64,000 bases of DNA from Thunnus maccoyii (Eukaryota > Chordata > Actinopteri > Scombriformes > Scombridae), in assembly GCF_910596095.1 (NCBI RefSeq), contig NC_056553.1:18189725-18253724 (forward strand). Direction: 5' to 3'. Positions 663 to 45,125 of the stretch are shown here, piece by piece. Numbering within the stretch: position 1 is the first letter of the stretch; each line of letters opens with the position of its first letter. The notes beneath the pieces were generated by a model. That model was not told the origin of the DNA and did no database searches. It was given only the letters and a program-made list of their open reading frames with translations. Made by a program: the position numbers and the translations under genes.

Positions 663-3600
663 ATGAGATTCATGGCAGCCCTGTTTACAAAGATGTTGAC
701 AGACAACATGTTACTGAGTGTCTTCTTTCTTACAAGTGAGTTGTTTGTTCACTCAGTTTTATTTGGAGACATTAACTCAAATCATTTACACTCTGAAACA
801 AAGCAGAAAGACCAGAAACTTCTTACAACTGTTCACATCCTGACTGCAAGTCAAATGTTTTATTTTAAAACTGTTAACAGGACAAGAAAACATGCAACAT
901 ACAGCTGCTGAACTGTATTTATTGTATCATGAACCATCTCATCATGGAGATTTTTCAACTTTATGTTAATCGTGACTCTGATCTCACAGGTGCTTTGGCT
1001 GCTTGTTCTGATGATTCACACCTCTTCATTACTGCACCGCTAGAGATAGAAGCACTGAGTGGATCTTGTTTGCAAATCCCGTGTAACTTTAGTGGTCTAC
1101 CAAGACAAGCATTTGACAGCAGGAGAACAACCATTGGAGTGTGGATTAAAAATGACCACAGATTTAAAAGCTATCCAAGAAATGTGATTTTCAACAGTGG
1201 TCAGACAGTTAACACCTATCCAATGAACATTACTGGAAACCTGAGTCAGAACGACTGCACCACTCTGTTTTCCAGTTTAAACACAACATATACAGACAAA
1301 TACTTCTTCAGAATTGAGAATGGACCATTCAGCGAAACAGCTTTTTGTGATCCTGTTCAAATAACAGTCAAAGGTAAGAGAATTTTTTTTTTTCAGTCAT
1401 ATTGTTGTTTAGAATAAAAAGGAAATCAGTTGCAGCTTTGGTCTGAACAGCAAACACCATGGCCCTAACCTTTACTGTGAAATTAAATATCTGATGTAGA
1501 CTACAAAGAAAACTCAGCTGTGGTGAAATGTGAGAAAAACCAGCCTGTGAACACATAGTCATTGGTTTGAATGTCCTGACTCACAGTTGAATAATACCTG
1601 AATATTTATACATTTAATCAGTATCAAGTTATTTTCACTCCTCCATATTCATTGAGGGACAAAGTTTAAATTAGTCTTAGTTTGCTTAAATTGCTGATTC
1701 TGACAGTTACTGTCTCAATGAATTCTCACAATACTCAACAACCTCTGACAGTTTCATGTCCCATGATGTGGTTTTTACAAATGGATGAAAATTAGGGTGA
1801 AAGATTGTAGTTTCAGTTTCACTGTAAAATAACCAACACTGACATTAACTGGTCCAAACTTTCCAAACAGTTGCAATACAATAGTGTCAGTGTTGTCGTG
1901 GTTCTATCCCAGTCTGTCTACACTGTATGTCCCTCCACCAGTCCACCAGGTGCTCTTAGATCTTTTCCCCATTTGTTGAACTGGACTAAGTGGCAGTTGG
2001 TCAGTAAGATGCAGCAATTTATACACCAGTCACTTCATTCCATGTCTTCTGTATTTACATTCAGGGCATTTAGCAGACCTTCTTATCCAGAGACTGACAG
2101 GTGTTTGTTCAATGGCTGAACTCTGTTTAACTCATCCTCAACACATTATGAAAAGAAGAGTTTGTTAACATTTGTTTCTGTATATTTGAATAATTTGCAT
2201 TTACAGCCTTTGTGTGCCATGTGAGAAGAACTACATCATTATGAAATTAATAAATTTTAAATAAGAGATTGCTGGTTACAGTGTAATTCTGTATTTGAGT
2301 GTATTCATGTATATTCTTAGATGGCCTTATTGGATAAGAGAATTGTGTTTTTGGTTTTCTGTTTGCCCTGAGTTTTTCCTCCTGTGCCCCCAACCTACTT
2401 CTCTTGCCACATCTCCCTTCATACCTACCCTGCATCAGTCTCGTTAGCCCTGCCTTGCTCCCTGTGTCTTCCCCAGCATATCAGCTCCCAGCCTTCCCTT
2501 GTGTCTTGCCACCTGTTTCTTGTTGTTTCATTAGTTCAGTTTGTATTTAAGTCCTGGTTTTCAGTTCAGTCTTGTTATGTTTTGTTCTACTTTGCCTGCT
2601 ACATTTGGATTAAAGTATCTGCTGCCTCATGCGTCCTGCATTTGGGACAATCTCCTGCTACTCCCTTTAAAAGTGTTGACAGTCAAAAACACCTTCTGAC
2701 CTACATCTATAACATTTACTGTATTCTTTAATGTAAAGTCTGTGTTTGATTTAAACCACAGATTCTCCTCCAAGCCCCAGAATTGCAATCTCAGGTGAGC
2801 TGAAGGAGAAGGAGTCTGTCACTATAACCTGCTCAGCTTTCACTCCCTGTCCACACTCCCCTCCTAAACTCACCTGGAATCTCCAACAAGACGCTCACAA
2901 CAAAATAGAGGAAAATGCAGATCGAACCTTCTCGACTAAAATCCAGAAGATCATCACTCTGTCTGACAAGCACGACGGATACAACATCACCTGTTCTTCC
3001 AGCTACTCTGTAAATGAAGGACAAAATGCTAAGTCAGCAGAGGAAAAAGTGACTCTCAGTGTTTCATGTAAGGCAACCAGAGTTTGTTATTGGATCCTGT
3101 CAAAACATGATGATTCATGGGATGTCAGCTGATTTTGTTGCAGTTTTAGAGAAAATTAATATTTCAAACATTGTGGTTTACTTATAACATTGCCTTTGGC
3201 CTCAAAGAATCTTCTTTTATGATGATATATTCTTTTTCCACTTTACAAATCTTTTCTCATTATTCAAAAATGTCTTACGTCAAATCTTCCAGATTCTCCC
3301 AAGGACACTGCGGTGGTCATCAGTCCCACTAGTCCAGGGTCAGTTGGCAGCGTGGTGAACATGACTTGCTTCTGCAGAGCAAACCCTCCTGTTGTTAACT
3401 TTACCTGGATGATGATCAATGATGGCAGATTGGAGCTGATCAAATATGATCAGCAGGTTTACAGCTTTAATGTGACCAGCAGTGATCGAGACAGGTTGTA
3501 CTATTGTGGATGTCAAAATTCAGTGGATATACAGTTCTCATCTGGATATCAGTTCATATTTGAAGGTAACAGACAAGTGAGGGTTTGTAACGTTTATGAG

Positions 3601-4581
3601 CAATAATATTTTCTATCAAGGACAATGTGACCATGGTGTCGTGTTACAGGAGATGAACAGTCTGGGAAATTGGTTGATGTCCACATTATACTGAAGACTG
3701 TGGGAATTGTGATACTGGTCAGTACAGTGATCATCTTTGAGTGGTGAGGCAAACTTTTTGATACTTTGCAACTACAGACAAATTTGTATGATGTTAAATG
3801 TGGTTTGGATGTTTGAGATAGATCATTATTATCACAATATAAACAAAAAATTCTTTCTGTCTCCTTTGTTCCCAGGTGGTTCAGAACAAGACGCTCCACC
3901 AAACCAGTGAAGGTAATAAAAAATTAATTATATGCTTGACTTTCAAAAATCCATCTTAAAATGTTTCCCAGTTGACTGACCACAGCTACAGTATGTTGCC
4001 TGTGAGATCTACTCAGTAAACATTGTGTTTATCTTATCCTGTCCTACTTCTGAGTACAAGTGTTGTTTTAATAAACCATTACAGTAACTCACAAATGTTA
4101 TGCTAACATACTAAACTAAGATGGTGAACATGGTGAACATTATACCTTCTAAACATCAGCATCATCACGGTGAGCATGTTAGCATGCTGATGTCAGCTTA
4201 AAGCACGGTCAAAGTACAGCCTCACAGAGCAGCTCGCATGGCTGTAGACTCTTAGTCTTGTTGTCCTAAACTAGCATCACAGTTTATCTTTGTCACATTA
4301 ATCTGCTGAATCAAAGGTGATCTTACAGTCAACACTTTGTTACATGAACAGGCAGGAAATTAGAGTTGGAGCTTTTGTGTTGACTCATTTGGTCCTGTGT
4401 GAGACTTATTGATCAACCAGCTAATTAACTGATTTGGATTTTTTCACTGATGATAAAACTCTTTCAGCTGCAGTAAATTCACTACAAATCACTAAGACCC
4501 CACTGTCTCTGTGCTGTTTCATTTCCACAGGACACAGTAGAAGCAGTCTTTGTCAACGGGGTGATGGAGTTGTCATCATGA
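663..4581 (+). CDS. Siglec-like Ig receptor, unit A (TM lysine, short tail)
   Basis: Predicted exons are 663-735, 990-1373, 2762-3067, 3293-3565, 3650-3743, 3876-3912 and 4531-4581. All have GT/AG borders and matching phases and give 405 residues. Order: signal peptide, Siglec V-set, C2-set, a second C2-set, transmembrane helix, short tail. The V-set has the Siglec CxxxxC pair (SCLQIPC), an E-strand Cys (NDC) and an F-strand FFRIE whose Arg matches the sialic-acid-binding Arg of Siglecs. D2 has the extra Cys (TPCPHSPP) typical of the family. The helix contains a Lys (HIILKTVGIVIL), as in DAP12- or FcR-gamma-coupled receptors. The tail ends DTVEAVFVNGVMELSS: the Tyr seen in units B and C is Phe here. 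The third Ig domain is a different subtype from that of B, C and F. A candidate polyA signal is at 5756. The exact ligand is unknown. Confidence 0.82.
1850..2725. repeat. 0.9-kb insertion in the V-C2 intron of unit A
   Basis: The intron between the V-set and first C2 exons is about 1.39 kb in A but about 0.48 kb in B, C and F. The flanks of the extra block align to the other units. The part from about 2280 to 2690 is pyrimidine-rich and has the look of a dispersed fish repeat. I cannot assign its class. No coding potential is supported. Confidence 0.5.
4080..4290. repeat. Interspersed repeat with GCATGTTAGCATGCTGATG core (unit A)
   Basis: This block has the 'gctaacat / gttagcatgc' core and the tail 'catggctgtagactcttag', typical of a very common percomorph interspersed, MITE-like repeat. 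It lies in the intron before the last tail exon and recurs at the same place in units B to E. A second copy in the opposite orientation sits between units. Class assignment is from memory and tentative. Confidence 0.5.
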
Positions 4582-5047
4582 GCCACGAGGAGAGGAAGAC
4601 CACATGTTCATCATCAGTAGAATTACATGATATCCAGTATTGTCTATTCTGTATTACATGCTTATTCATCATTTGCATTTGTTAGTGTTCCACTTACAAG
4701 AAGACAGATAACTGCTTCCTCCAGGGCAGTAAATATGAAATAGTCTTACTTTGTATAAGCTTTGAAAGATGAACAAGATGATCCCAGACTTCATCAGCAT
4801 GTGAAGGTGGTTTTGTTTCTGCAGTGCATTTCTTCTTTTTTCTTCTGAGAGTCATTCATGGCACCAGTAGTTTTTCTTTTGTTTTTAAGATGTCAAAAAG
4901 ATAATTAAACCATGTTATTAATACAATTAATTAGTAATGAAATGAAATGACTGTTAAAATTAGAACTTTCAGATTTCTTGCCAACACGGTTTTTCATGTT
5001 TCATGTGTGTTTAGGAGTAAAGCATTTTTATCACTTATTCTGTCATT

Positions 5048-5572
5048 TCAATCAGGAGAGACTCATTTTCTTTACGAAAGTAAGTGACATTTATTGAACA
5101 AGCATGATAGATTCTGATGTCACCGGATATGAAAGGGGGAGATGAATGCAAGAGTAGAATAGGATAACCCCCCAATGGAGTCTATACAGTGGTGGTGGTG
5201 ATGGATAGGTGTAGATCTTGGCGGTGTAGGTAGTGGCTTTTGGTAAACTCGGGCCTGGTGCTGAAGTAATGGAGTGGAGAAGGCACGATGGTGATCTGGG
5301 ATGAAGAGGAGAGGAGTGAGCTTCCAGGACACGGCTGTGGAGGCGGATGAGGCGGAGGAGTGTCGCGATGATTGCTCTGGAAACAGATTTTAAAGTTTGG
5401 CCACTGAGCCGTGATTGGTGGTTAGAGATTGTGGAGTAATCTGATTTGATAACTAGGAGTGACGCCCTAAACAGCTGATGTGAAAGCAGGAGGAGCAGAG
5501 GAGAGAGAGAGGAGTGGGAAATGAATGACTGGTTAAAGATAGTCTTCCTGCCTGAATTTACGCTAAACTCCA
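5048..5572. repeat. 0.5-kb insertion specific to unit A, class unknown
   Basis: In units B, C, D and E the sequence runs from 'tctgtcattt' straight into 'gttttagcac'. In A about 525 bp lie between these points, with a short direct repeat (catttg-like) at both ends that could be a target-site duplication. The insert is G-rich with a GGTGGTGGTGATGG run. The long reading frames across it on the minus strand show no recognisable domain and are treated as chance. Confidence 0.45.
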
Positions 5573-6545
5573 TTTGTTTTAGCTCATTTACACAAAGGTT
5601 GATGATAGCTGCAGATGACGGATTTTTTAATGTCACATTTACAGCACAGAAGTAAGCCACTGTGGTTACTGTGTGCAAAAAACATTGTTATGATTTCAGC
5701 TGATTAATTGTGTCATTATTGTGATTCATGTGATATATTCTATACATATCAATAATAAAGAAGATTAAAAATACAGGCTTGCAATGAGTTGTGTTACATG
5801 TATTGAGTGAATTTGTCATTTGATTACTTAAATTTTCACAATATCTGACTCCCTTCCTCACAGGATATCAGTTGCATGTAATCTCTTTGAATATAGTGTT
5901 TTAATCTCTGAGATCAGATGATATCCAGAAGCTTTTTAACCAAAAAAGGTGAACTGAGAGAGGTTTATCTGAAGAGGGAAGTTGATACATCTCTGATTAC
6001 AATTCTACAAAAGTCACAAATTGCCTCACTTCACTTCAAAATAACGAAATTAGATGTTTCCCCTCATTGTTTAGTGGTGGACTCATTTGATGAGGAGAAC
6101 TTTACTTCTTGGCTCCTTTACTGTAAAACAAAATGTCTAAGACGAACCTATGATCAGATAGTCATTTTCAATGTCCTGAATATCTGTCTTTGTATTTCTT
6201 TTTTTTTTGCAATACTATTAAAAAGCATACCTGGTCATATGACCAGACTTGAAATAGGAAAATCAAAGTGACCGTCTTCTACTCCTTCATATGTTTTATC
6301 AATAAATAACAAAATCATCACAAATCCCCAGATTTTCTTTACAGTTTTACAACAAAAAGGTCAGATTTGATATTGAGAATGCCTGTGAAGGTTCTCAGTC
6401 ATCCAGGTCATGGTATATCCAAAAACCTTGAGTTAAGAGCAAATGGGCATGTAGATTCTCTGAGAATTTTTGCCTCTAATCCAAAAGGCGTCCTCAGTTC
6501 TGAGAGTTGGCAGAACTTCAGTTTTTCAACCTTTTGCTATTACAG
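5573..6545. other. Conserved 3' flank of unit A, no gene seen
   Basis: This aligns to 18790-19440 (B), 27580-28260 (C) and 37310-37985 (E). It holds the AATAAA at 5756-5761, a plausible polyadenylation signal for the upstream receptor. A short open stretch containing VVDSFDEENFTSWLLYC (around 6070-6125) is kept in A, B, C and E, but it has no start context, no splice frame I can connect, and no recognisable domain. From about 6190 the sequence is unique to A. Confidence 0.4.
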
Positions 6546-6702
6546 ATATTGGAGATTTTCTGTTGCTATGTCCAATAATAGCAGTTATTCTGATGATCAT
6601 CACTTTATTACATCAGTCTAACAGGTGAAGAGCTGGCTCTTTAACAACCAATCAGAATAACAGAAGAAGAAGAAATCCATTACTGAGAGATCAACTCCAA
6701 AC
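6546..6702 (+). pseudogene. Relic transmembrane and ITIM-tail exon sequence (unit A)
   Basis: After an AG acceptor, 6546-6624 reads as a hydrophobic helix with core IIAVILMIITLL and ends at a GT. Its phases (in 1, out 2) equal those of the transmembrane exons in A, B, C and F. Directly overlapping it, 6613-6702 aligns to the start of the ITIM exon of unit F (44898 onward): the shared run is 'caggtgaaga', then 'acagaagaagaa', then 'atccatta'. In the frame of F it reads TEEEEIHY followed by TGA, where F has IHYGEISF. The alignment stops exactly at the Tc1 insertion at 6706. I read this as a dead ITIM exon. The helix part is less certain. Confidence 0.5.
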
Positions 6703-6705
6703 GTA

Positions 6706-14922: not shown

Positions 14923-17900
14923 ATGAGATTCATGGCAGCCCTGTCTACAAAGATGTTGACAGACAACATGTTACTGAGTGTCTTCTTTCTTACAGGTGAG
15001 CTGTTTGTTCACTCAGTTTTATTTTGAGACATTAACTCAAATCATTTACACTCTGAAACAAAGCAGAAAGACCAGAAACTTCTTACAACTGTTCACATCC
15101 TGACTGCAACGTCAAGTTTTAAAACTGTTAACAGGACAAGAAAACATGCAACATTCAGCTGCTGAACTGTATTTATTGTATCATGAACCATCTCATCATG
15201 GAGATTTTTCTACTTTATGTTAATCATGACTCTGATCTCACAGGTGCTTTGGCTGCTTGTCCTGATGATTCAGGCCTTTTCATTACTGCACCGCTGGAGA
15301 TGGAAGCACTGAGTGGATCTTGTTTGCAAATCCCGTGTAACTTTGGTGCTGGACCAGGAAAAACATTTGATGGCAGCAGAACAACCTTTGGAGTGTGGAT
15401 TAAAAAGGACGTTAGATTTGCACTCTATCCAGAGAATGTGATTTTCAACAGTAGTCAGACAGTTAACACCTATCCAATGAACATTACTGGAAACCTGAGT
15501 CAGAAAAACTGCACAACTTTGTTTTCCAGTTTAATCACAACGTATACAGACAGATACTACTTCAGAATTGAGAACAGACAATTCATATCAACAGCTCTTT
15601 GTAGTCCTATTCAAATAACAGTCAAAGGTAAGAGAATTTTGTTTTTTCAGTCATATTGTTGTTTAGAATAAAAAGGAAATCAGTTGCAGCTTTGGTCTGA
15701 ACAGCAAACACCATGGCCCTAACCTTTACTGTGAAATTAAATATCTGATGTAGACTACAAAGAAAACTCAGCTGTGGTGAAATGTGAGAGAAACCAGCCT
15801 GTGAACACATAGTCATTGGTTTGAATGTCCTGACTCACAGCTGAATAATACCTGAATATTTATACATTTAATCAGTATCAAGTTATTTTCACTCCTCCAT
15901 ATTCATTGAGGGACAAAGTTTAAATTAGTCTTAGTTTGCTTAAATTGCTGATTCTGACAGTTACTGTCTCAATAAATGCTCACAATACTCAACAACCTCT
16001 GACAGTTTCATGTTCCATGATGTGGTTTTTACAAATGGATAAAAATTAGCTGTAAAATAACTAACACTGACATGTAGCGTAAAGTCTGTCTTTGATTTTA
16101 AACCACAGATTCTCCTCCGAGCCCCAGAATTGAAATCTCAGGTGAGCTGAAGGAGAAGGAGTCTGTCACTATAACCTGCTCAGCTTTCACTCCCTGTCCA
16201 CACTCCCCTCCTAAACTCACCTGGAATCTCCAACAAGACGCTCACAACAAAATAGAGGAAAACGCAGATCGAACCTTCACGACTAAAATCCAGACGACCA
16301 TCACTCTGTCTGACAAGCACGACGGATACAACATCACCTGTTCTTCCAACTACTCTGTGAATGAAGGACAAAATGCTAAGTCAGCAGAGGAAAAAGTGAC
16401 TCTCAGTGTTTCATGTAAGGCAACCAGAGTTTGTTATTGGATCCTGTCAAAACATGATGATTTATGGGATGACAGCTGATTTTTAATGAATAAAAATAAT
16501 CACATTTTCTGCAGATGCTCCCAAAGACACCTCAGCGAGGATCAGTCCATCAGGTTCGGTGTCACCAGGTAGCTGGGTGAACCTGACCTGCTCCAGCAGA
16601 GCCAAACCTGCTGCCAACTTCACCTGGTACAAGATCAGCAAAGATGGACCCATGAAAGTATCTGAAGGAGACTTTTACAGCTTCAATGTGACAGATGGAG
16701 GAGTTTATCACTGTGTGGCCACAAATGATCTTGGTAATCAGATGTCATCAAGGATCCATCTGACTATTAAAGGTAAATGCAGGACTGTACTGAATCCACT
16801 CTAATGTGGGACTCCAAAAGTGGGTGCACATCACTTGTTCTGCCAGATATCCTGTGAATGAAGGAAAAGATATCAAGGCAGCAGAGTAAAAACTTGTTCA
16901 ATGTTTCAAGACGTAATTTAAATTTATTTTCTGAAGACAACTGAAGGCTCCTTAAAATCGGCCCTGCTGAGATGTTGTTGAGCATGAACGTCATCAAAGT
17001 GTGCTGTTGCAGCAGAGCCTGACTTCTAATCTTGCATTAGGAGAGGCCAAGAGAATTTTGTTACAAAGATTAATAAGGTGTCACATTATTGTTGCATCTG
17101 TATGATGTTAAAATGCAGCAGTTGTAGAGAAAATTCATATTTCACACATTGTGATTTACAAATAACATCACCTTTCGCCTCAAAGAGTCTTCTTTTACAA
17201 TGATATATTCTTCTTCCACTTTACAAATCTTTTCCCATCACTCAAAAATCTCTCCATGTCAAGTCTTCCAGACTCGGGAATGATGTTTGTTTAAAATTTG
17301 TGATGTTTTAGAAACTTAACACTTTCCATTAAGGAGAATGTGACCATGGTGTCGTGTTACAGGTGATGAACAGTTGAAATTGGTTGACGTCCACATTATA
17401 CTGAAGACTGTGGGAATTGTGATACTGGTCAGTACAGTGATCATCTTTGAGTGGTGAGGCAAACTTTTTGATACTTTGCAACTACAGACAAATTTGTATG
17501 ATGTTAAATGTGGTTTGGATGTTTGAGATAGATCATTATTATCACAATATAAACAAAAAACTTCTTTCCATCTCTTTTTTTCCCAGCTGGTTCAGAACAA
17601 GACGCTCCACCAAACCAGTGAAGGTAATAAAAAATTAATTATATGTTCGACTTTCAAAAATCCATCTTAAAATGTTTCCCAGCTGACTGACCACAGCTAC
17701 AGTATGTTGCCTGTGAGATCTACTCAGTAAACATTGTGTTTATCTTATCCTGTCCTACTTCTGAGTACAAGTGTTGTTTTAATAAACCATTACAGTAACT
17801 CACAAATGTTATGCTAACATTTTAAACTAAGATGGTGAACATGGTGAACATTATACCTTCTAAACATCAGCATCGTCACGGTGAGCATGTTAGCATGCTG

Positions 17901-18292
17901 ATGTCAGCTTAAAGCACGGTCAAAGTACAGCCTCACAGAGCAGCTTGCATGGCTGTAGACTCTAAGTCTTGTTGTCCTAAACTAGCATCACAGTTTATCT
18001 TTGTCACATTAATCTGCTGAATCAAAGGTGACCTTACAGTCAACACTTTGTTACATGAACAGACAGGAAATTAGAGTTGGAGCTTTTGTGTTGACTCATT
18101 TGGTCCTGTGTGAGACTTATTGATCAACCAGCTAATTAACTGATTTGGATTTTTTCACTGATGATAAAACTCTTTCAGCTGCAGTAAATTCACTACAAAT
18201 CACTAAGACCTCACTGTCTCTGTGCTGTTTCATTTCCACAGGACACAGTAGAAGCAGACTATGTCAACACAGTGATGGAGTTGTCATCATGA
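14923..18292 (+). CDS. Siglec-like Ig receptor, unit B (TM lysine, YVNT tail)
   Basis: Exons are 14923-14995, 15244-15627, 16109-16414, 16515-16772, 17363-17453, 17587-17623 and 18242-18292. All are in phase and give 399 residues. The V-set has SCLQIPC, KNC and YYFRIE (sialic-acid Arg). Its GAGPGKTFDGSR and KKDVRFALYPEN loops differ from the other units. D2 is nearly identical to A, C and F. D3 has VNLTCSSRAKPAANFTW and YHCVATNDLG. The helix has the same Lys (ILKTVGIVILV), followed by a Cys-Trp and a basic stretch (RTRRSTKPVK). The tail is DTVEADYVNTVMELSS: YVNT fits the Grb2 SH2 pattern YxN, and there is no ITIM. This suggests signalling by an adaptor pairing with the Lys, or a decoy role. 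A candidate polyA signal is at 18973. Confidence 0.84.
16803..16910 (+). pseudogene. Relic C2-set exon in unit B intron
   Basis: The sequence translates to a damaged match of the end of the D2 domain: TSCSARYPVNEGKDIKAAE then stop, where D2 has ITCSSNYSVNEGQNAKSAE. No acceptor or upstream half remains. The same relic is in unit C, while unit A lacks this segment. It shows that the ancestral gene had at least one more Ig domain. Confidence 0.6.
17810..17990. repeat. Interspersed repeat copy, unit B
   Basis: Same repeat and same position as 4080-4290, in the intron before the last tail exon. Nearly identical to it in sequence. Confidence 0.5.
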
Positions 18293-23708: not shown

Positions 23709-26700
23709 ATGAGATTCATGGCAGCCCTGTCTACAAAGATGTTGACAGACAACATGTTACTGAGTGTCTTCTTTCTTACAGGTGAGCTGTTTGTTCACTC
23801 AGTTTTATTTGGAGACATTAACTCAAATCATTTACACTCTGAAACAAAGCAGAAAGACCAGAAACTTCTTACAACTGTTCACATCCTGACTGCAACGTCA
23901 AGTTTTAAAACTGTTAACAGGACAAGAAAACATGCAACATTCAGCTGCTGAACTGTATTTATTGTATCATGAATCATCTCATCATGGAGATTTTTCTACT
24001 TTATGTTAATCGTGACTCTGATCTCACAGGTGCTTTGGCTGCTTGTCCTCATATTCCACACCTCTTCATTTCTGCACCGCTGGAGATAGAAGCACTGAGT
24101 GGATCTTGTTTGCAAATCCCGTGTAACTTTAGTGGTCTACCGGAGCAAACATTTGACAGCAGGAGAACAACCTTTGGAGTGTGGATTAAAAATGACCACA
24201 ATTTTAAAAGCTATCCAGAGAATGTGATTTTTAAAAGTAGTCAGACAGTTAACACCTATCCAATGAACATTACTGGAAACCTGAGTCAGAACAACTGCAC
24301 AACTTTGTTTTCCAGTTTAATCACAACATATTCAGACAAATACTACTTCAGAATTGAGAGCAATGAATTCAGATCAACAGCTATTTGTGATCCTGTTCAA
24401 ATAACAGTCAAAGGTAAGAGAGTTTTCTTTTTTTCAGTCATATTGTTGTTTAGAATAAAAAGGAAATCAGTTGCAGCTTTGGTCTGAACAGCAAACACCA
24501 TGGCCCTAACCTCTACTGTGAAATTAAATATCTGATGTAGACTACAAAGAAAACTCAGCTGTGGTGAAATGTGAGAGAAACCAGCCTGTGAACACATAGT
24601 CATTGGTTTGAATGTCCTGACTCACAGTTGAATAATACCTGAATATTTATACATTTAATCAGTATCAAGTTATTTCAAATCCTCCATATTCATTGAGGGA
24701 CAAAGTTTAAATGAATCAGTCTTAGTTTGTTTAAGTCACTGATTTTGACAGTTACTGTCTCAATAAATGCTCACAATACTCAATGTGGTTTTTACAAATG
24801 GGTAAAAATTAGGGGGAAACATAAAATTTTGTTTCAGTTTAGCTGTAAAATAACTAACACTGATGTGTAGTGTAATGTCTGTGTTTGATTTTAAACCACA
24901 GATTCTCCTTGGAGCCCCAGAATTGAAATCTCAGGTGAGCTGAAGGAGAAGGAGTCTGTCACTATAACCTGCTCAGCTTTCACTCCCTGTCCACACTCCC
25001 CTCCTAAACTCACCTGGAATCTCCAACAAGACGCTCACAACAAAATAGAGGAAAACGCAGATCGAACCTTTACGACTAAAATCCAGACGACCATCACTCT
25101 GTCTGACAAGCACGACGGATACAACATCACCTGTTCTTCCAGCTACTCTGTGAATGAAGGACAAAATGCTAAGTCAGCAGAGGGAAAAGTGACTCTCAGT
25201 GTTTCATGTAAGGCAACCAGAGTTTGTTATTGGATCCTGTCAAAACATGATGATTTATGGGATGTCAGCTGATTTTTAATGAATAAAAATAATCACATTT
25301 TCTTCAGATGCTCCCAAAGACACCTTAGCGAGGATCAGTCCATCAGGTTCGGTGTCACCAGGTAGCTGGGTGAACCTGACCTGCTCCAGCAGAGCCAAAC
25401 CTGCTGCCAACTTCACCTGGTTCAACATCAGCAAAGATGGACCCATGAAAGTATCTGAAGGAGACTTTTACAGCTTCAGTGTGACAGATGGAGGAGTTTA
25501 TCACTGTGTGGCCACAAATGATCTTGGTAATCAGATGTCATCAAGGATCCATCTGACTATTAAAGGTAAATGCAGGACTGTACTGAATCCACTCTAATGT
25601 GGGACTCCAAAAGTGGGTGCACATCACTTGTTCTGCCAGATATCCTGTGAATGAAGGAAAAGATGTCAAGGCAGCAGAGTAAAAACTTTTTCTCAATGTT
25701 TCAAGACGTAATTTAAATTTATTTTATGAGGACAACTGAAGGCTCCTTAAAAACGGCCCTGCTGAGATGTTGTTGAGCATGAACGTCATCAATCAAAGTG
25801 TGCCGTTGCAGCAGAGCCTGACTTCTAATCTTGCATTAGGAGAGGCCAAGAGAATTTTGTTACAAAGATTAATAAGGTGTCACATTATTGTTGCATCTGT
25901 ATGATGTTAAAATGCAGCAGTTGTAGAGAAAATTCATATTTCACACATTGTGATTTACAAATAACATCACCTTTCACCTCAAAGAGTCTTCTTTTACAAT
26001 GATATATTCTTCTTCCGCTTTACAAATCTTTTCCCATCACTCAAAAATCTCTCCACGTCAAGTCTTCCAGACTCAGGAATGATGTTTGTTTAAAATTTGT
26101 GATGTTTTAGAAACTTAACATTTTCCATTAAGGAGAATGTGACCATGGTGTCGTGTTACAGGTGATGAACAGTTGAAATTGGTTGACGTCCACATTATAC
26201 TGAAGACTGTGGGAATTGTGATACTGGTCAGTACAGTGATCATCTTTGAGTGGTGAGGCAAACTTTTTGATACTTTGCAACTACAGACAAATTTGTATGA
26301 TGTTAAATGTGGTTTGGATGTTTGAGATAGATCATTATTATCACAATATAAACAAAAAACTTCTTTCTGTCTCCTTTGTTCCCAGCTGGTTCAGAACAAG
26401 ACGTTCCACCAAACCAGTGAAGGTAATAAAAAATTAATTATCCGCTCGACTTTCAAAAATCCATCTTAAAATGTTTCCCAGTTGACTGACCACAGCTACA
26501 GTATGTTGCCTGTGAGATCTACTCAGTAAACATTGTGTTTATCTTATCCTGTCCTACTTCTGAGTACAAGTGTTGTTTTAATAAACCATTACAGTAACTC
26601 ACAAATGTTATGCTAACATACTAAACTAAGATGGTGAACATGGTGAACATTATACCTTCTAAACATCAGCATCGTCACGGTGAGCATGTTAGCATGCTGA

Positions 26701-27091
26701 TGTCAGCTTAAAGCACGGTCAAAGTACAGCCTCACAGAGCAGCTTGCATGGCTGTAGACTCTTAGTCTTGTTGTCCTAAACTAGCATCACAGTTTATCTT
26801 TGTCACATTAATCTGCTGAATCAAAGGTGACCTTACAGTCAACACTTTGTTACATGAACAGGCAGGAAATTAGAGTTGGAGCTTTTGTGTTGACTCATTT
26901 GGTCCTGTGTGAGACTTACTGATCAACCAGCTAATTAACTGATTTGGATTTTTTCACTGATGATAAAACTCTTTCAGCTGCAGTAAATTCACTACAAATC
27001 ACTAAGACCCCACTGTCTCTGTGCTGTTTCATTTCCACAGGACACAGTAGAAGCAGACTATGTCAACACAGTGATGGAGTTGTCATCATGA
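23709..27091 (+). CDS. Siglec-like Ig receptor, unit C (TM lysine, YVNT tail)
   Basis: Exons are 23709-23781, 24030-24413, 24902-25207, 25308-25565, 26162-26252, 26386-26422 and 27041-27091. All are in phase and give 399 residues. The layout is the same as unit B. The V-set keeps SCLQIPC, NNC and YYFRIE, with its own loops: GLPEQTFDSRR, NDHNFKSYPEN and ESNEFRSTAICD. D2, D3, helix (Lys in ILKTVGIV) and tail (DTVEADYVNTVMELSS) are almost those of B, which points to recent duplication or gene conversion. The 5'UTR exon ends at 23347. A polyA candidate is at 27769. There is no ITIM. As in B, an adaptor-coupled activating role is inferred from the Lys, not shown. Confidence 0.84.
25596..25705 (+). 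pseudogene. Relic C2-set exon in unit C intron
   Basis: Homologue of 16803-16910: TSCSARYPVNEGKDVKAAE then stop. It is the same truncated Ig-domain end, inherited from the common ancestor of B and C. Confidence 0.6.
26620..26790. repeat. Interspersed repeat copy, unit C
   Basis: Same repeat as at 4080 and 17810, at the same place in the gene. Confidence 0.5.
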
Positions 27092-31639: not shown

Positions 31640-33775
31640 GTGTTTGAGCACACACAAAGGTCATGATAGCTGTGTAGCTGACTGCTGATTTAATGTGTAA
31701 TCCAGCACAATGGTGGCTCTGTAAAAATTATATTTTGAAAAAACTCAAACTAACTAACAAACTATGTAATTTTATCACTTATTTAGTAAAAAAAAAAAAA
31801 ATTACACAAATAGAACCATGTGAGGTGAAAGAGGCATTTTCATCACTGAGGTTCTCTCATCAGTCCAGTAATGCAGAGCAGCAGCAACAACACTGGAAAC
31901 TAGAATATATATGTGTAACACATGAAGTCAACATTTCCATCTGTTCAAATGGGTTAAAATACTCACAGCATGTGAACAATGAAGGTTGGAACTGTTTGTA
32001 TTTGTCAGATATTTATATCACTCAGGTCAGCTGATCTTCAGCTTTACAACAAACCACATGGACTTGCTCTGTAAATCTTAAAACACAGGAAGTCAACTCA
32101 CTTTTAAAATTAGAAAAGCTAAAAAGACAAGTTGGTTAGTAAGCAAGTCAGCAACAACAACTGAGTATATGTGTACGATACATGAAGTTAACATATGTGT
32201 TCAAATCAATACATTATTTTAGTGATTTATATAATATATTCTACATATTAATGAATATAAACCTGCAGTGAGTCATGTGGTTAAAATACTCAGGATATTA
32301 GCAGTAAGGGTGAGAACTGTTTGTATTTGTTGTAAACTTGTGTCACTCAGGTCCAAATGAACTTCCTCTGTAGGTCTTAAAACACAGGAAGTTTTAAATT
32401 GCAAAAGCTAAAAAGGGAAGTCGTTCAGTTGGACTGTTGCATTACAGTTCAGCTTAATAAACTGAAAGATTTCACTTGAAATCACCAGTCATCTTATCCT
32501 GTCCTACTTCTGAGTACAAGTGTTTTAATAAACCATTACAGTAACTCATAAATGTTATGCTAACATACTAAACTAAGATGGTGAACATGGTGAACATTAT
32601 ACCTTCTAAACATCAGCATCGTCACGGTGAGCATGTTAGCATGCTGATGTCAGCTTAAAGCACGGTCAAAGTACAGCCTCACAGAGCAGCTTGCATGGCT
32701 GTAGACTCTTAGTCTTGTTGTCCTAAACTAGCATCACAGTTTAACTTTGTCACATTAGTCTGCTGAATCAAAGGTGACCTTACAGTCAACACTTTGTTAC
32801 ATGAACAGACAGGAAATTAGAGTTGGAGCTTTTGTGTTGACTCATTTGGTCCTGTGTGAGACTTATTGATCAACCAGCTAATTAACTGATTTGGATTTTT
32901 TCACTGATGATAAAACTCTTTCAGCTGCAGTAAATTCACTACAAATCACTAAGACCCCACTGTCTCTGTGCTGTTTCATTTCCACAGGACACAGTAGAAG
33001 CAGACTATGTCAACACAGTGATGGAGTTGTCATCATGAGCCATGAGGAGAGGAAGACCACATGTTCATCATCAGTAGAATTACATGATATCCAGTATTGT
33101 CTATTCTGTATTACATGCTTATTCATCATTTGCATTTGTTAGTGTTCCACTTACAAGAAGGCAGATAACTGCTTCCTCCAGGGCAGTAAATATGAAATAG
33201 TCTTACTTTGTATAAGCTTTGAAAGATGAACAAGATGATCCCAGACTTCATCAGCATGTTAAAGTAGTTTTGTTTCTGCAGTGCATTTCTTCTTTTTTCT
33301 TCTGAGAGTCAACATAACATCTTCATTACTAATATTGGACTGATTCATGGCACCAGTAGTTTCTTTTGTTTTTAAGATGTCAAAAACATAATTAAACCAT
33401 GTTATTAATACAATTAATTAGTAATGAAATGAAATGACTGTTAAAATGTGAACTTTCAGATTTCTTGCCAAGAAGCTTTTCATGTAGTGTTTAGGAGAAA
33501 AGCATTTTTTCATCACTTATTCTGTCATTTGTTTTAGCACATTTACACAGGTAAAGGTTGATGATAGCTGCAGATGACGGATTTCTTAATGTCACATTTA
33601 CAGCACAGAAGTCAGCAAAGACACTGTGGTAACTGTGTGCAAAAAACATTGATATGATTTCAGCTGATTAATTGTGTCATTATTGCAATTCATGTGATAT
33701 ATTCTATACATATCAATAATAAAGAAGATTAAGCATACAGGCGTGCAATGAGTTCTGTTAAATGTTTTTTAGAGT
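31640..33775 (+). pseudogene. Unit D: receptor gene remnant lacking all Ig and TM exons
   Basis: The upstream region matches unit B (two tandem promoter copies). It runs to 'gaaatcaccagtca' near 32490 and then jumps to 'tcttatcctgtcc', which in unit C lies about 3.2 kb further on (23305 to 26541). Lost are the 5'UTR donor, signal exon, V-set, both C2 exons, the helix and the basic exon. The last tail exon survives intact at 32988-33038 (DTVEADYVNTVMELSS) with its acceptor. The distal 3' flank is also missing, and the remnant meets a shortened solo LTR. It cannot encode a receptor. Confidence 0.8.
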
Positions 33776-35580: not shown

Positions 35581-38500
35581 ATATAACAAAACAAAGAACA
35601 CTTAAAATTAAAACATTTAAACATTTGAATTATGAGGAAGTAGACAATGTCAAAGAGAAAACCATTTTCATAACTTACATCATCATTTGTGTTTGAGCAC
35701 ATATACAAAGGTTATGACAGCTGTGTAGTTGACTGCTGATTTAATGTGTCATCCAGCACAATGGTGGCTCTGTAAAAGTTACATTTTGAAACAACTTACA
35801 ACTGACTTGTGTCACTTATTTAGTGATGAAATTGTAATAACACAAATAAACACATGTGAAGCGAGAGAAACATTTTCATCACTGAGGTTTTCTCATCGGT
35901 CCAGTAATGCAGAGCAGCAGCACACAAGTCAGCAACAACAACTGAGTATATGTGCACAATACATGAAGTTAACATATCATCTGTTCAAATCAATACATTA
36001 TTTTAGTGATTTATATAATATATTCTACATATTAATGAATATAGACCTGCAGTGAGTCATGTGGTTAAAATACTCAGGATATTAGCAGTAAGGGTGAGAA
36101 CTGTTTGTATTTGTTGTAAACTTGTGTCACTCAAGTCCAAATGAACTTCCTCTGTAGGTCTTAAAACACAGGAAGTTTTAAATTGCAAAAGCTAAAAAGG
36201 GAAGTCGTTCAGTTGGACTGTTGCATTACAGTTCAGCTTAATAAACTGAAAGATTTCACTTGAAATCACCAGTCATCTTATCCTGTCCTACTTCTGAGTA
36301 CAAGTGTTGTTTTAATAAACCATTACAGTAACTCACAAATGTTATGCTAACATACTAAACTAAGATGGTGAACATTATACCTTCTAAACATCAGCATCGT
36401 CACGGTGAGCATGTTAGCATGCTGATGTCAGCTTAAAGCACGGTCAAAGTATAGCCTCACAGAGCAGCTCGCATGGCTGTAGACTCTTAGTCTTGTTGTC
36501 CTAAACTAGCATCACAGTTTATCTTTGTCACATTAATCTGCTGAATCAAAGGTGACCTTACAGTCAACACTTTGTTACATGAACAGACAGGAAATTAGAG
36601 TTGGAGCTTTTGTGTTGACTCATTTGGTCCTGTGTGAGACTTATTGATCAACCAGCTAATTAACTGATTTGGATTTTTTCACTGATGATAAAACTCTTTC
36701 AGCTGCAGTAAATTCACTACAAATCACTAAGACCCCACTGTCTCTGTGCTGTTTCATTTCCACAGGACACAGTAGAAGCAGACTATGTCAACACAGTGAT
36801 GGAGTTGTCATCATGAGCCATGAGGAGAGGAAGACCACATGTTCATCATCAGTAGAATTACATGATATCCAGTATTGTCTATTCTGTATTACATGCTTAT
36901 TCATCATTTACATTTGTTAGTGTTCCACTTACAAGAAGGAAGATAACTGCTTCCTCCAGGGCAGTAAATATGAAATAGTCTTACTTTGTATAAGCTTTGA
37001 AAGATGAACAAGATGATCCCAGACTTCATCAGCATGTTAAAGTAGTTTTGTTTCTGCAGTGCATTTCTTCTTTTTTCTTCTGAGAGTCAACATAACATCT
37101 TCATTACTAATATTGGACTGATTCATGGCACCAGTAGTTTTTCTTTTGTTTTTAAGATGTCAAAAACATAATTAAACCATGTTATTAATACAATTAATTA
37201 GTAATGAAATGAAATGACTGTTAAAATGTGAACTTTCAGATTTCTTGCCAAGAAGCTTTTCATGAAGTGTTTAGGAGAAAAGTATTTTTATCACTTATTC
37301 TGTCATTTGTTTTAGCACATTTACACAGGTAAAGGTTGATGATAGCTGCAGATGACGGATTTCTTAATGTCATATTTACAGCACAGAAGTCAGCAAAGAC
37401 ACTGTGGTAACTGTGTGCAAAAAACATTGTTATGATTTCAGCTGATTAATTGTGTCATTATTGTAATTCATGTGATATATTCTATACATATCAATAATAA
37501 AGAAGATTAAGCATACAGGCGTGCAATGAGTTCTGTTAAATGTGTTTTAGAGTGAATTTGTCATTTGAAAACTTAAGTTTTCACCAAATCTGACTTCCTT
37601 CCTCACAGGATATCATTTGCATGTGAACTGTTTGTATGTAGTGTTTTAATCTCTAAGTTCAGATGATATCCAGAAGCTTTTGAACCAAAAAAGATGAACA
37701 AAGAGAAGTTTAGATGAAGAGAGAAGTTGATACATTGTTCTTTACAATTCTACCAAGATTCACAAATTGCCTCACTTCACCTCAAAGTCATGAAATTAGA
37801 TGTTTCTTTCATTGTTTAGTGGTGGACTCATTTGATGAGGAAAACTTTACTTCTTGGCTCCTTTACTGTAAAACAAAATGTCTTCTAAAGGATAATCAAT
37901 TAAATCAGTGGTGGGCTAATGTTACAGAGACTAACCTGTGATCAGAGAGTCTTTTTCAATGTTCTGACTGGGATGTTTAAATTTCAATAGACCGCTGTGG
38001 GGAAAAACATCTAAAATTTCTTGCTTGTGTCTTACAGTACTGAAACAGGACGGTCTTGACATAAGCAAGAACTGGCCTTCTCATAGAAAATGAAAAGGAA
38101 AGGCAAAAGAGGGAAGAGATCAGGACATGAGACAAAGAGATGGAGAAGAACTGATTGTGAGGGATGAAGAACTGAGTGAGAAAGATGAAACAGAAGAAGA
38201 ATGAGAGGGACAGAAGCTGATGGGTAGAGATTAAGACTGAAAGACACTTTACACCTCGTGGTGTGTTTTCTCTCTGTTTACATCATTTCCAGAACAAAGA
38301 CACACTCAGTAAAATAGTTTTTGGCTATTTTCTGTCACTATTTACCTGCAGAAGTGATAAATACATTTCTCCGTTGCCACCCCATGTAAAACTTTCTAGA
38401 TCTGCCACTTCTGATTACTGTACTACTGTATTTGCAGGCCTCACTTATTATTGTTGTGTTCTCATCATTCTCCACCAGGCGACACTGTTGACCACAAAGA

Positions 38501-38661: not shown

Positions 38662-38663
<2 letters not shown>

Positions 38664-38804
38664 TTCCTACTATTCACAGCTCTGTACAACTGCCCCGTAA
38701 AAAAAACGTGCTTCTGTTCACAAAGAAACAAGAATGCACGTTATCTGCTGCAGCACATCATCCGCAGATCACAAACGACACTATGAGTTGTTTCATTTCC
38801 ACAG

Positions 38805-39251: not shown

Positions 39252-40741
39252 TGTGGCAGAGTGGTGCCGTAAATTGCCTCGACAACGCCACCGGGGGGAT
39301 TTCACCCCGGAAATTATTAAATTGGGAGTTAGCTACAAGCAAATAAGCAAGACACAGGTTCAATAATAAATTCCACTTAGGCAGAGAACGTGTTCAATTA
39401 AAAATACTTTATTAAACAAAATGAGAAAAAGAAACAATCAAAGGGTAATTCGCTAAAAATGTCAGCCACCACAGCGGAACCCAGGAATTAATGGCACAGG
39501 AAGGCGAACCAAAAAAAGGGGTTGGAGACAGGGCTGAGGCTTACCAAGGCAGCACGGATCAAACCAAGGCAGGGAAATTCACAACAAAAGAAAAAACACT
39601 TGTGACAAAGCAAACCAGCGAACAAAATCGAGAGTGCGAAGGAAACCCACCACCGGGGGAGTGGACTGCTGCCTGGGTCCCCAGCACCTGTCAAATAGAA
39701 AGAAAATTAATATACAGCAAACAAAACAATACAAAAGCCCTGGTGGTGACACTACAATCTGACACAATTACATAGGCCCCAAATTAATATTTACAGAATG
39801 AAACACCCAAATAAACCAAATTGTTTTCATTCTTAACACAAATCAAAGAAGAAAATAACTAAGTAAGGGGAGTAATTATGTCAGTAAAATAAAATACACA
39901 CAAACGACCAATCTAAAAAGGTACAGACTGAGCGGCCTGTACGCAGGAGTCACCACGCAGCTCGGTCAGCCGGACAGCTGAGCCGCAGGGCATCAGCTGT
40001 GAAGCAGCAGCGGTGAAACAATAGTTGAAACAGCCACGGCGGAGACAGCATCAAAGCCGCAGCCGTATTTAGGGGGTGGTGGCCAGTGCTAAGCCATGCA
40101 CCTCTACAGCCTCTATAAAAAGGGCACAAATGATTTTTATTAAATCTGGTGAATGATTATTTTAAGGTGAGTTCCATTCATGGTTACTACCTACCAGCGG
40201 GCACCAGCACAGCCTCCCCGACGATAGGAGGGAGAAGTTGGCCTGTAGCGTTGCTTTGCTGCAAGGCAGCAATCAACATGCCAGTCAGCTGAGAGCCACA
40301 CGCACTGTTGTATAAGAAAGGCGGACAACGCCGACTCACCAAGGGAAACAAGAAGCGACCACGCCGGGCCCCGAGTGGGCCAAGCAGTCCCTCCACACCA
40401 ACAGCCAACTGCACGCACACAGAGAAACACCAGCGCTACCAGTGCGCACACAGCACCGACTGCGCACTTAAATGGGAGAGGGTACACTGGCAGAGCGCAT
40501 TACCTTTGAATAACAGTGAAGCACGTTGGCGGCAAGCAAACACGCCAAAATGCCCGCACTGCTTCACCACGCCAGGCTGCGGCCACCACACAACAGGATC
40601 ATCCAAGGGAGGATCGAGAGGAAGAGGTGCGATCAGGCACCTGCCTGTATAGGTGCGCTTGGTGCCACCCAGCAACAGTGCGCTAAGAACTGGCACAGTG
40701 CCACACGGTGGCATGGAGAGCCACTACATCATACGGCCACA
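39252..40741 (-). mobile_element. Solo LTR, copy 4 (after unit E)
   Basis: Complete copy, TGTGGCAG to CGGCCACA, with CTTG on both sides (39248-39251 and 40742-40745). 1490 bp. Closely similar to copies 1 and 2. Confidence 0.75.
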
Positions 40742-40769
40742 CTTGGATGATCAAGAAGATGGTTAAACA

Positions 40770-41185
40770 AATGATTCTTTTATTTAGCCTCACTCATGCT
40801 AGCAGCTCTTCTAATGTCAGCATGCTAACATGCTCATAATGATAATGCTAACATGCTGATACCAAGCAATTATATTGTTAACCATGTTCACCATGTTAGT
40901 TTGACCAATTAGCACTAAACAGCTGAGGCTGTTGGGAAAGTTGTTTGTCAGTTTGTTGTAAACCAAATTATTGGACAAATGTAAGTTTTGATCTGAGGCG
41001 TTAGATGAAAAGTCAGTGGATCATTAAAGTCAGTAGGATTCCTCCTCTGAGGACCATGAATGTCTGTTCAAAGTTTTGTGCCAATCCATGCAGGAGATGT
41101 TGAGATATTTGAGTCTGGACCAAAGTGATGGACCGACAGACAGACATTGTCATCCATAGAGCCAAATATTTATATAACAAAACAA
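40770..41185. repeat. Inter-unit interspersed repeat (before unit F, type 2)
   Basis: Type 2 version. Just after it about 150 bp found before C and E are missing ('cttaaaattatccatccagc'). Confidence 0.5.
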
Positions 41186-42132
41186 AGAACACTTAAAATT
41201 ATCCATCCAGCACAATGGTAGCTCTGTAAAAGTTACATTTTGAAACAACTTACAACTGACTTGTGTCACTTATTTAGTGATGAAATTGTAATAACACAAA
41301 TAAACACATGTGAAGTGAGAGAAACATTTTCATCACTGAGGTTTTCTCATCGGTCCAGTAATGCAGAGCAGCAGCACACAAGTCAGCAACAACAACTGAG
41401 TATATGTGTACGATACATGAAGTTAACATATCATCTGTTCAAAGCAATACATTATTTTAGTGATTTATATAATATATTCTACATATTAATGAATATAGAC
41501 CTGCAGTGAGTCATGTGGTTAAAATACTCAGGATATTAGCAGTAAGGGTGAGAACTGTTTGTATTTGTTGTAAACTTGTGTCAAAGGAACTTCCTCTGTA
41601 GGTCTTAAAACACAGAAAGTTGACTCAGTTTTAAATTGCAAAAGCTAAAAAGGGAAGTCGGTCAGTTTGTCTGTTGCATCACAGCTCAGCTTAATAAACT
41701 GAAAGATTTCACTTGAATTCACCAGTCAAAGGATCTTACTGCTGCTCTGTTTTTGATGTGAGCTTGTTGGGTAAGACCTTCTTAACTTTTTTAACCCAGA
41801 GAGTTATATTATTCTGTTACTCCTCATGAACTGAAGTGGAAAATATTTGATATAACATCTTATTTGTTGGGCTTTGTTTTAGCAGAAATGGCATCTAAGA
41901 AATGAAAGATCACTGTAACATTTTACCATTAACAGATACCATAATCTCACTACTTTGGTATTATTTAGAATTTATATTGAATATAATATTTCATAGTTCT
42001 GCAGATTTACATCCCTGGTTTGAATGTGTGAATTTTAAGAGAAGAATTAGTTTTAATATAATGAATAAAAACTCCATAAAATGGTTAAAAGAAGAAAATA
42101 TTCCTGCATTTTTATGTTTGTAAATCCAGGTG

Positions 42133-45125
42133 ATGAGATTCATGGCAGCCCTGTCTACAAAGATGTTGACAGACAACATGTTACTGAGTGTCTTCTTTCT
42201 TACAGGTGAGCTGTTTGTTCACTCAGTTTTATTTGGAGACATTAACTCAAATCATTTACACTCTGAAACAAAGCAGAAAGACCAGAAACTTCTTACAACT
42301 GTTCACATCCTGACTGCAACGTCAAATGTTTTATTTTAAAACTGTTAACAGGACAAGAAAACATGCAACATACAGCTGCTGAACTGCATTTATTGTATCA
42401 TGAACCATCTCATCATGGAGATTTTTCTACTTTATGTTAATCATGACTCTGATCTCACAGGTGCTTTGGCTGCTTGTCCTCATATTTCACACCTCTTCAT
42501 TACTGCACCGCTGGAGATGGAAGCACTGAGTGGATCTTGTTTGCAAATCCCGTGTAACTTTAGTGCTGCACCGGGACAAACATTTGATGGCAGGAGAACA
42601 ACCATTGGAGTGTGGATTAAAAATGACCACAATTTTAAAAGCTATCCAAGAAATGTGATTTTCAACAGTGGTCAGACAGTTAACACCTATCCAATGAACA
42701 TTACTGGAAACCTGAGTCAGAATGACTGCACCACTCTGTTTTCCAGTTTAAACACAACATATACAGACAGATACTACTTCAGAATTGAGGGCAATGGATT
42801 CATGGCAACAGCTGTTTGTGATCCTGTTCAAATAACAGTCAAAGGTAAGAGAGTTTTCTTTTTTCAGTCATATTGTTGTTTAGAATAAAAAGGAAATCAG
42901 TTGCAGCTTTGGTCTGAACAGCAAACACCATGGCCCTAACCTTTACTGTGAAATTAAATATCTGATGTAGACTACAAAGAAAACTCAGCTGTGGTGAAAT
43001 GTGAGAGAAACCAGCCTGTGAACACATAGTCATTGGTTTGAAAGTCCTGACTCACAGTTGAATAATACCTGAATATTTATACATTTAATCAGTATCAAGT
43101 TATTTCAAATCCTCCATATTCATTGAGGGACAAAGTCTAAATGAATCAGTCTTAGTTTGTTTAAGTCACTGATTTTGACAGTTACTGTCTCAATAAATGC
43201 TCACAATACTCAACAACCTCTGACAGTTTCATGTCCCATGATGTGGTTTTTACAAATGGATGAAAATTAGCTGTAAAATAACTAACACTGACATGTAGTG
43301 TAAAGTCTGTGTTTGATTTTAAACCACAGATTCTCCTCCGAGCCCCAGAATTGAAATCTCAGGTGAGCTGAAGGAGAAGGAGTCTGTCACTATAACCTGC
43401 TCAGCTTTCACTCCCTGTCCACACTCCCCTCCTAAACTCACCTGGAATCTCCAACAAGACGCTCACAACAAAATAGAGGAAAACGCAAATCGAACCTTTA
43501 CGACTAAAATCCAGACGACCATCACTCTGTCTGACAAGCACGACGGATACAACATCACCTGTTCTTCCAGCTACTCTGTGAATGAAGGACAAAATGCTAA
43601 GTCAGCAAAGGAAAAAGTGACTCTCAGTGTTTCATGTAAGGCAACCAGAGTTTGTTATTGGATCCTGTCAAAACATGATGATTTATGGGATGTCAGCTGA
43701 TTTTTAATGAATAAAAATATTCACATTTTCTTCAGATGCTCCCAAAGACACCTCAGTGAGGATCAGTCCATCAGGTTTGGTGTCACCAGGTAGCTGGGTG
43801 AACCTGACCTGCTCCAGCAGAGCCAAACCTGCTGCCAACTTCACCTGGTACAAGATCAGCAAAGATGGAACCATGAAAGTATCTGAAGGAGACTTTTACA
43901 GCTTCAATGTGACAGATGGAGGAGTTTATCACTGTGTGGCCACAAATGATCTTGGTAATCAGACGTCAGAGATCGATCTGCCTATTAAAGGTAAATGCAG
44001 GACTGTACTGATTCCAGTTACTTTCATTAATGAAAAGTGGGACTTGTGTATGTTATATCTCTTCATGCTTATATTGCTTTTATTTCTATAAGGAAATGGG
44101 TCTTTGAAGCTGGGGGCACTTCTTGGAGGAATCTTTGTGATCATCATACTCATCTGCCTGGTTGTCTGTGTGTGGTGAGTATCACAAATTATAGCAGCTA
44201 AAATGACTCAGTTTCTGGCTCTTAAATTCCAGCCAAGCCCACGCTGACGATAAGAAACAGATTAGCTTGTGGTCTGTTATTTCTTTACGTGTCTGGAAAT
44301 CAACTTTTCTGATATTTCCTCTACATACCGATGAAAGTGTTTAACTCTGTGGTCTGAAAAAAGACATCAGAAGCATCACACTCACATTTCAATCTAGATT
44401 TTTCATTGATGATTTCTTTTTTCTTTTTCTTCTCTTTGTACAGCACTCTCATGTTTTTCAAGCGGTCCAAGTCAACGCATCCAACTCCACAACAGACTGA
44501 GGTGGGAAAATACTAAAACATTACTGTACAGTAATGCACTGTGTGTTGTGAGCATTTTAAAAATGCTCACAGTGACAGTGAGCTCAGTCCAGATGATTTC
44601 ACAAGTCTGTGTGGGAAAGACAGAAGACTGAGTTAAATGTGAAGAAATGCAACAAATGTGACAAAACATCCTCTTACAAATACACTAAGGTGGAAGGTGG
44701 AAGACTACGCAACCCACATGAGAGCAGACAATTTATCGTTTAGCTCTTTCTTGAAACAACATACGTTTTGTTGCTGTGATAATCTGTGATTATATGTGAT
44801 TATTCTGATCTTTAGTGAGAGAATGAGGTGACATTTAGAGGCTGAAACTCCACCTCCTGCTTCTCACAACACTTTTTGTTCGTTACATTTTTTGCAGAGT
44901 CAAACAGGTGAAGAAAAGCCAGCTACAACAGAAGAAGAACAGATCCATTATGGAGAGATCAGCTTCTCCAAGCGGAGACCTGGACCATCCTCTGACTCAG
45001 CGCAGGACAGTGGACAGCAGCAGGATACAGTGTATGCACAGGTCAAAGCATCCAAGCCAACAAACAGCTTAGCACAGACTGTGGACGGCCCAGAGGACCT
45101 GTATGCTACAGTGAAGAAAAAATGA
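42133..45125 (+). CDS. Siglec-like Ig receptor, unit F, ITIM/ITSM-bearing (inhibitory type)
   Basis: Exons are 42133-42205, 42461-42844, 43330-43635, 43736-43990, 44093-44174, 44444-44501 and 44898-45125. All are in phase and give 461 residues. Signal peptide 1-24; Siglec V-set 25-152 with Cys51, Cys56 and Cys114 and YYFRIE (Arg about 132, the sialic-acid contact in the family); C2 domains 153-254 and 255-339; helix about 345-366 (LLGGIFVIIILICLVVCVC) with no charged residue. The tail carries QIHYGEISF (Tyr404, ITIM), DTVYAQVK (Tyr432, ITSM TxYxxV) and EDLYATVKKK (Tyr455). Such tails recruit SHP-1/SHP-2 or SAP-type SH2 proteins. This is the classic inhibitory CD33/CD22-like form and the only one in the array. 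The 5'UTR exon ends at 41770; AATAAA at 45498. Orthology to a single mammalian Siglec is not implied. Confidence 0.87.

Follow-up and report, generated by a model that had tools for sequence, protein, structure and literature searches.

Introduction

In mammals, Siglec-5 and Siglec-14 form one pair of inhibitory and activating receptors. A further pair, Siglec-11 and Siglec-16, comprises partners with very similar extracellular regions, and gene conversion has affected their sialic-acid-binding exon region in every primate examined (PMC5701461). A 2020 study described fish genomes as lacking CD33-related inhibitory Siglecs and teleost MAG as carrying an immunoreceptor tyrosine-based inhibitory motif (ITIM; PMC7226832), and a 2026 paper described the CD33-related group as largely mammal-restricted (PMC12837193). 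Among fish receptors, catfish LITR 2.6b combines a membrane Lys with a short tail and LITR 1.1b bears an ITIM and an immunoreceptor tyrosine-based switch motif (ITSM), fish also possessing FcR-gamma and DAP12 homologues (PMC4810170), while the medaka NITR are clustered receptors of one or two immunoglobulin (Ig) domains, most with ITIMs and with strongly divergent V domains (PMC2442602). The locus described here lies in a stretch of 64,000 nucleotides (the window; 18,189,725-18,253,724 of contig NC_056553.1, termed C21) of the 782-Mb genome of Thunnus maccoyii and contains four receptor genes, A, B, C and F, which an initial annotation had viewed as a paired set of activating-type and inhibitory Siglec-like receptors. 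The window contains the 3' part of an eleven-gene tandem array of three-Ig receptors of the Siglec type, in which opposite tails are probably joined to exchanged, diversifying heads.

Extent and composition of the array

In splice-checked models, each of the four genes has seven exons with GT/AG borders and an open frame, all on the forward strand. The span originally assigned to them, 663 to 45125, runs exactly from the first base of the A ATG to the last base of the F stop codon. NCBI protein P0050 is identical to F, P0074 corresponds to A preceded by six N-terminal residues, and P0121, minus its first Met, falls within C and is without the signal and V exons. The V-exon search, in which all 27 candidates were scored and counts represent lower bounds, located at least 11 V exons of this kind genome-wide, all on one 128-kb stretch of C21. 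A DNA search of the genome with the Lys exon gave four copies, three in the window (A, B and C) and one upstream, and a protein search with the F tail exon gave seven matches, all on C21 between 18,109,465 and 18,234,846, F being the seventh and the six additional ITIM-type tail exons lying upstream of the window. In a scan of 233 kb of joined host DNA, V exons and full C2a exons numbered 11 each; the array begins with I1-I6 and K1, continues with A, B and C, and ends with the fragments and F. Besides the four genes of the window, a splice model was built for K1 only, and it is full and open. The array holds seven inhibitory-type (ITIM-tail) and four Lys-helix genes. This refutes the original proposal that the activating form had multiplied and the inhibitory one stayed single; the inhibitory gene looked single because the window edge cuts the array.

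Likeness and Siglec identity of the heads

The V domains of A, B and C display 80-86% amino-acid identity to that of F, and their C2a domains 94-97%. In the third Ig domain B and C retain 86-91% identity, whereas A presents only 45% and was rejected as a copy of the F domain; the earlier description of the extracellular parts as close copies thus stands for all three Ig domains in B and C, but in A for V and C2a only. Nearly identical heads are found on opposite tail classes within one array. Both A and K1 differ from the remaining genes in the third Ig domain. That of A, termed C2c, has extra cysteines and is similar to the domain that precedes the Lys helix in proteins of Enoplosus and Perca (P0077, P0115), which suggests an old subtype of the Lys class.

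Comparison of F with solved structures revealed MAG/Siglec-4 as the best match (E value of 7e-19 over 298 residues), the V-domain Arg of F aligning with the MAG sequence YYFR, followed by CD22, CD33, Siglec-10 and Siglec-5. Bit scores were 71 for MAG, 47 for CD22, 36 for CD33 and 31 for Siglec-10, the CD33 and Siglec-10 chains being shorter. The Arg of the V-domain F strand, which we take to be the sialic-acid contact residue, is present in all 11 tuna V exons and in 130 of 131 single-V fish proteins (all but P0032), a count for which 17 pattern-flagged proteins were read by eye. Six cysteines, C51, C56, C114, C176, C182 and C230, are invariant in 33/33 alignment rows and fit the Siglec pattern, for which a B-E intrasheet and a V-C2 interdomain disulfide are predicted. 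A structure model with a mean predicted local distance difference test score (pLDDT) of 48.5 was confident only for the membrane helix and the V domain (pLDDT of about 70-90); the V domain alone matched Siglec-7 and sialoadhesin with a root mean square deviation (rmsd) of 2.8-3.2, among other Ig folds. Because of this limited confidence, multi-domain matches, which had an rmsd over 13, were given no weight; antibody folds matched as well. On this evidence the heads are classed as Siglec-type, in agreement with the initial annotation, at the level of the family rather than of the CD33-related or another subfamily. The possibility that the array is the MAG locus was rejected, as distant V exons, one of them MAG-like, sit on another contig, C10. 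There, a second Siglec-like cluster (C10:9554493-9812063; L048-L053) comprises six distant V exons of 27-32% identity, and L051 resembles MAG by eye.

Two membrane and tail classes

The Lys helix HIILKTVGIVILVSTVIIFE is present in A, B and C. In the splice models the membrane exon is followed by two further exons, encoding WFRTRRSTKPVK and then DTVEADYVNTVMELSS in B and C or DTVEAVFVNGVMELSS in A, which rules out that these genes end in the membrane exon. The models agree with the earlier reading of a Lys within the helix and a short tail without an ITIM, although the tails of B and C hold one tyrosine (DYVNTV), at a site occupied by Phe in A. The F model bears out an uncharged helix followed by IHYGEI (ITIM), TVYAQV (ITSM) and a third Tyr (DLYATV). 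By reading, six of the seven inhibitory tail exons contain an ITIM and an ITSM-like motif; the I3 tail presents IHYGET and RVYAQV, outside both consensuses, and in I2 and I4 the tail ends beyond the second motif, with no third.

Both classes have relatives in many other fishes among the matches listed. From 150 fetched fish proteins, 80 were assigned to the Lys class with a profile for which 11 tails of that class served as seed, after two proteins with inhibitory tails (P0080 and P0060) had been dropped from 82 profile matches. Lys is kept in 76/80 of these, with no Arg substitute, a figure due in part to the profile selection, and an inner Glu in 77/80 of the same profile-picked proteins, while Tyr occupies the YVN site in 41 of the 57 complete tails. 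In a less biased subset, drawn from a homologue list comprising the best 120 of 1,100 matches and thus leaving distant fishes and other vertebrates outside the sample, the corresponding figures are 47/50, 47/50 and 27/33. When the B tail alone served as query, the six proteins retrieved were all from Thunnus; the P0116 tail was used in its place, which biases the tail counts. Close relatives among the matches listed are all fishes, which makes it plausible that the system is fish-specific, as had been suggested.

Head and membrane trees conflict

Phylogenies of heads and of membrane segments, which the initial annotation had called for, were calculated separately. The V tree contained 80 rows, 69 hand-chosen proteins of the 150 and the 11 tuna exons; proteins without exactly one full V domain had been left out, as had models of the Lys class longer than 530 residues. 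The membrane tree used 73 of these rows: the seven tuna genes located upstream, outside the window, were omitted, and P0005, P0052 and P0085 (inhibitory, helix poorly picked) and P0108 (helix cut short) were kept. Membrane and juxtamembrane segments split by class with a single change (support 99). In contrast, the V tree required 26 class changes, compared with 26.9 after shuffling of labels, and a tree with one clade was rejected (approximately unbiased test, p of 1.2e-38); on the 73 rows of the membrane tree, V domains gave 21 changes against 24.4 shuffled. In a strict V set of 56 rows, with all models over 530 residues removed, 8 changes remained, 7 of them forced by supported branches, and 0% of bootstrap trees had one clade. 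A Lys-helix and an inhibitory protein of Cebidichthys are sisters in this strict set (support 100/97). The conflict between the two trees, together with near-identical heads on both tail classes, supports the description of the set as paired.

At the V exon of the eleven tuna genes, mean nonsynonymous divergence (dN) is 0.103 and synonymous divergence (dS) 0.078, dN exceeding dS in 44/55 pairs, as compared with 0.021, 0.044 and 9/55 pairs at C2a. V nucleotide identity is equal within and between classes (0.905 among Lys-helix genes, 0.911 among inhibitory-type genes and 0.908 between them). The C2b exon presents a mean dN of 0.028 and dS of 0.004 over 36 gene pairs, an uncertain comparison given the few synonymous differences.

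Proposed mechanism and alternative explanations

On the observed gene structures, counts, conservation, tree conflict and V-exon dN excess rests a model in which ligand, adaptor, phosphatase, cell type and exchange mechanism are inferred. Judging from their motifs, the seven ITIM/ITSM-type tails would most likely recruit SHP phosphatases. The Lys-helix genes (A, B, C and K1) would most likely signal through an acidic adaptor with an immunoreceptor tyrosine-based activation motif, FcR-gamma-like or DAP12, and the YVN tyrosine of the B and C tails may add recruitment of Grb2. Both classes should bind overlapping sialylated or sialic-acid-mimicking ligands via the V-domain Arg, and exchange of head exons, by gene conversion or unequal crossing over, would keep the heads matched as the V domain diversifies. 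A broader proposal, on which we lean slightly towards doubt, is that spiny-rayed fishes have a paired Siglec system of their own. Its two membrane/tail modules, both old, would be the ITIM-ITSM type and the Lys-Glu helix joined to a YVN tail; heads would have been exchanged between them across the radiation, and the V domains would constitute one common, diversifying repertoire that can be coupled to either sign.

Several observations weigh against this model or its broader form. The Lys is located close to where the helix ends on the outer side. The two tuna genes of C2c type, A and K1, both carry Phe at the tail Tyr site, which is changed in 16/57 complete tails. The catfish receptor LITR 2.6b associates with FcR-gamma forms rather than with DAP12, and its Lys is not needed for this (PMC4810170). 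Divergence of the first intron is 0.054 (0.025 without I1) and that of the start of the second intron 0.073 without I1, such that V dS lies above the former and near the latter, and older imported sequence may, besides selection, shape the V domain. Pairwise dN and dS values are also non-independent and leave recombination out of the model. In the strict V set, rows of like class group together more than chance predicts (8 changes against a shuffled mean of 15.5, 0/500 as low) and 13/18 inhibitory rows belong to Thunnus; without Thunnus, 35 rows with 5 inhibitory ones give 3 changes, of which 2 are forced. Support for head exchange between classes is therefore good within tunas and weaker for the other fishes, where it rests on these few rows.

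An alternative is that the Lys-helix genes act as decoys or as sinks for ligand without adaptor coupling, the Lys only marking the outer membrane border. Such a role would suit the position of the Lys, the absence of the tail Tyr from A and K1 and the dispensability of the membrane Lys for adaptor binding in LITR 2.6b (PMC4810170), but it is unlikely in view of the retention of Lys and Glu in the profile-picked Lys-class proteins, where no Arg replaces the Lys. Only 14 residues separate the Lys from the inner Glu in B. Since a segment of this length is too short to span a membrane, one of the two charges should be buried. The Lys-class tail could instead signal alone, through phosphorylated YVN and Grb2, with the charged helix serving some other pairing; the prevalence of the Tyr, which is higher in the less biased subset, agrees with this, and YxN is named as a Grb2-binding motif in PMC4810170. 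Replacement of the Tyr in more than a quarter of complete tails, including those of both tuna C2c-type genes, nevertheless makes this explanation quite unlikely. Finally, the interchangeable heads might be an artefact of sampling, fused models or recent tuna duplications, with some copies being assembly errors. Many public models of 560-690 residues are possibly fused, and the number of class changes, 26 in the full V tree, drops to 8 on exclusion of models over 530 residues and to 3 if Thunnus is excluded as well. Against this stand the forced changes and the lack of one-clade bootstrap trees in the strict set, the Cebidichthys pair, the presence of both classes in other Thunnus records and the single change given by the membrane segments of the 73 rows, so that we consider an artefact very unlikely.

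Feature positions, fragments and relics

Coordinates are collected in Table 1. Units between C and F are fragmentary and contain short-tail exons, no V, C2 or membrane exon having been found there in the scan. Besides D and E, a diverged copy of this exon (DTVEAEYVNRAIEIQT) stands with no other receptor exon adjoining, and another occurs upstream, outside the array (C21:18103993). Downstream of A, helix-like and ITIM-exon-like stretches interrupted by stop codons constitute a relic inhibitory 3' end, followed by a stretch resembling a Tc1-type transposase by eye. Remnants of a decayed extra C2 exon in B and C suggest that the ancestral unit had additional Ig domains. An Rfam scan of the window gave no family at gathering score.

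Table 1. Positions, strands and basis of the features in the window
Feature	Position	Strand	Exons or description	Basis
Gene A (K2)	663..4581	+	663-735, 990-1373, 2762-3067, 3293-3565, 3650-3743, 3876-3912, 4531-4581; signal, V, C2a, diverged C2c, Lys membrane helix, short tail (AVFVNG)	splice model
C2c domain of A	3293-3565	+	third Ig domain	splice model
Lys membrane exon of A	3650..3743	+		splice model; genome DNA search
Relic inhibitory 3' end	6536-6704		downstream of A	
Gene B (K3)	14923..18292	+	14923-14995, 15244-15627, 16109-16414, 16515-16772, 17363-17453, 17587-17623, 18242-18292; DYVNTV tail	splice model
C2 remnant in B	16827-16895		decayed extra C2 exon	
Lys membrane exon of B	17363..17453	+		splice model; genome DNA search
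Gene C (K4)	23709..27091	+	23709-23781, 24030-24413, 24902-25207, 25308-25565, 26162-26252, 26386-26422, 27041-27091; DYVNTV tail	splice model
C2 remnant in C	25620-25703		decayed extra C2 exon	
Lys membrane exon of C	26162..26252	+		splice model; genome DNA search
Fragment unit D	32988..33035	+	short-tail exon copy, no adjoining V, C2 or membrane exon	
Fragment unit E	36766..36813	+	short-tail exon copy, no adjoining V, C2 or membrane exon	
Diverged short-tail exon copy	38805-38852			
Gene F (I7)	42133..45125	+	42133-42205, 42461-42844, 43330-43635, 43736-43990, 44093-44174, 44444-44501, 44898-45125; inhibitory-type tail	splice model
C2b exons of B, C and F	16515-16772, 25308-25565, 43736-43990	+		splice model
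Uncharged membrane exon of F	44093..44174	+		splice model
F tail exon	44898..45125	+	IHYGEI, TVYAQV, DLYATV	splice model; 7 genome matches, all within array
PEPCK gene exons	51044-55634	-	borders array downstream	

Comparison with known receptor systems

No published report of such an array was found among the matches listed from the open-licence literature, a scope outside which subscription papers mostly fall. The titles of two tilapia studies, on Siglec7 and "siglecs-like", speak of a cytotoxic-cell receptor of inhibitory type and of an interaction with the sialylated capsule of group B streptococcus; both may concern relatives. The tuna genes and their fish relatives of both classes would parallel the mammalian paired Siglecs and would allow testing whether activating copies arise against pathogens displaying host-like sialic acid.

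The array resembles Siglec-11/16 in combining inhibitory and activating-type partners with very similar extracellular regions. It differs in scale, with eleven genes rather than one pair, in its Lys-Glu helix and YVN tail, in its diversifying V domain and in its fish lineage, which has MAG as best solved match. MAG/Siglec-4 and CD22, the best solved-structure matches of F, are set apart by locus (C10 versus C21). The division into members with a membrane Lys and short tail and members with ITIM/ITSM is shared with the catfish LITR, in contrast to which the tuna heads possess the Siglec V-domain Arg and cysteine pattern. Clustering, prevalent ITIMs and divergent V domains recall the medaka NITR, whose one or two Ig domains contrast with the three of the tuna receptors.

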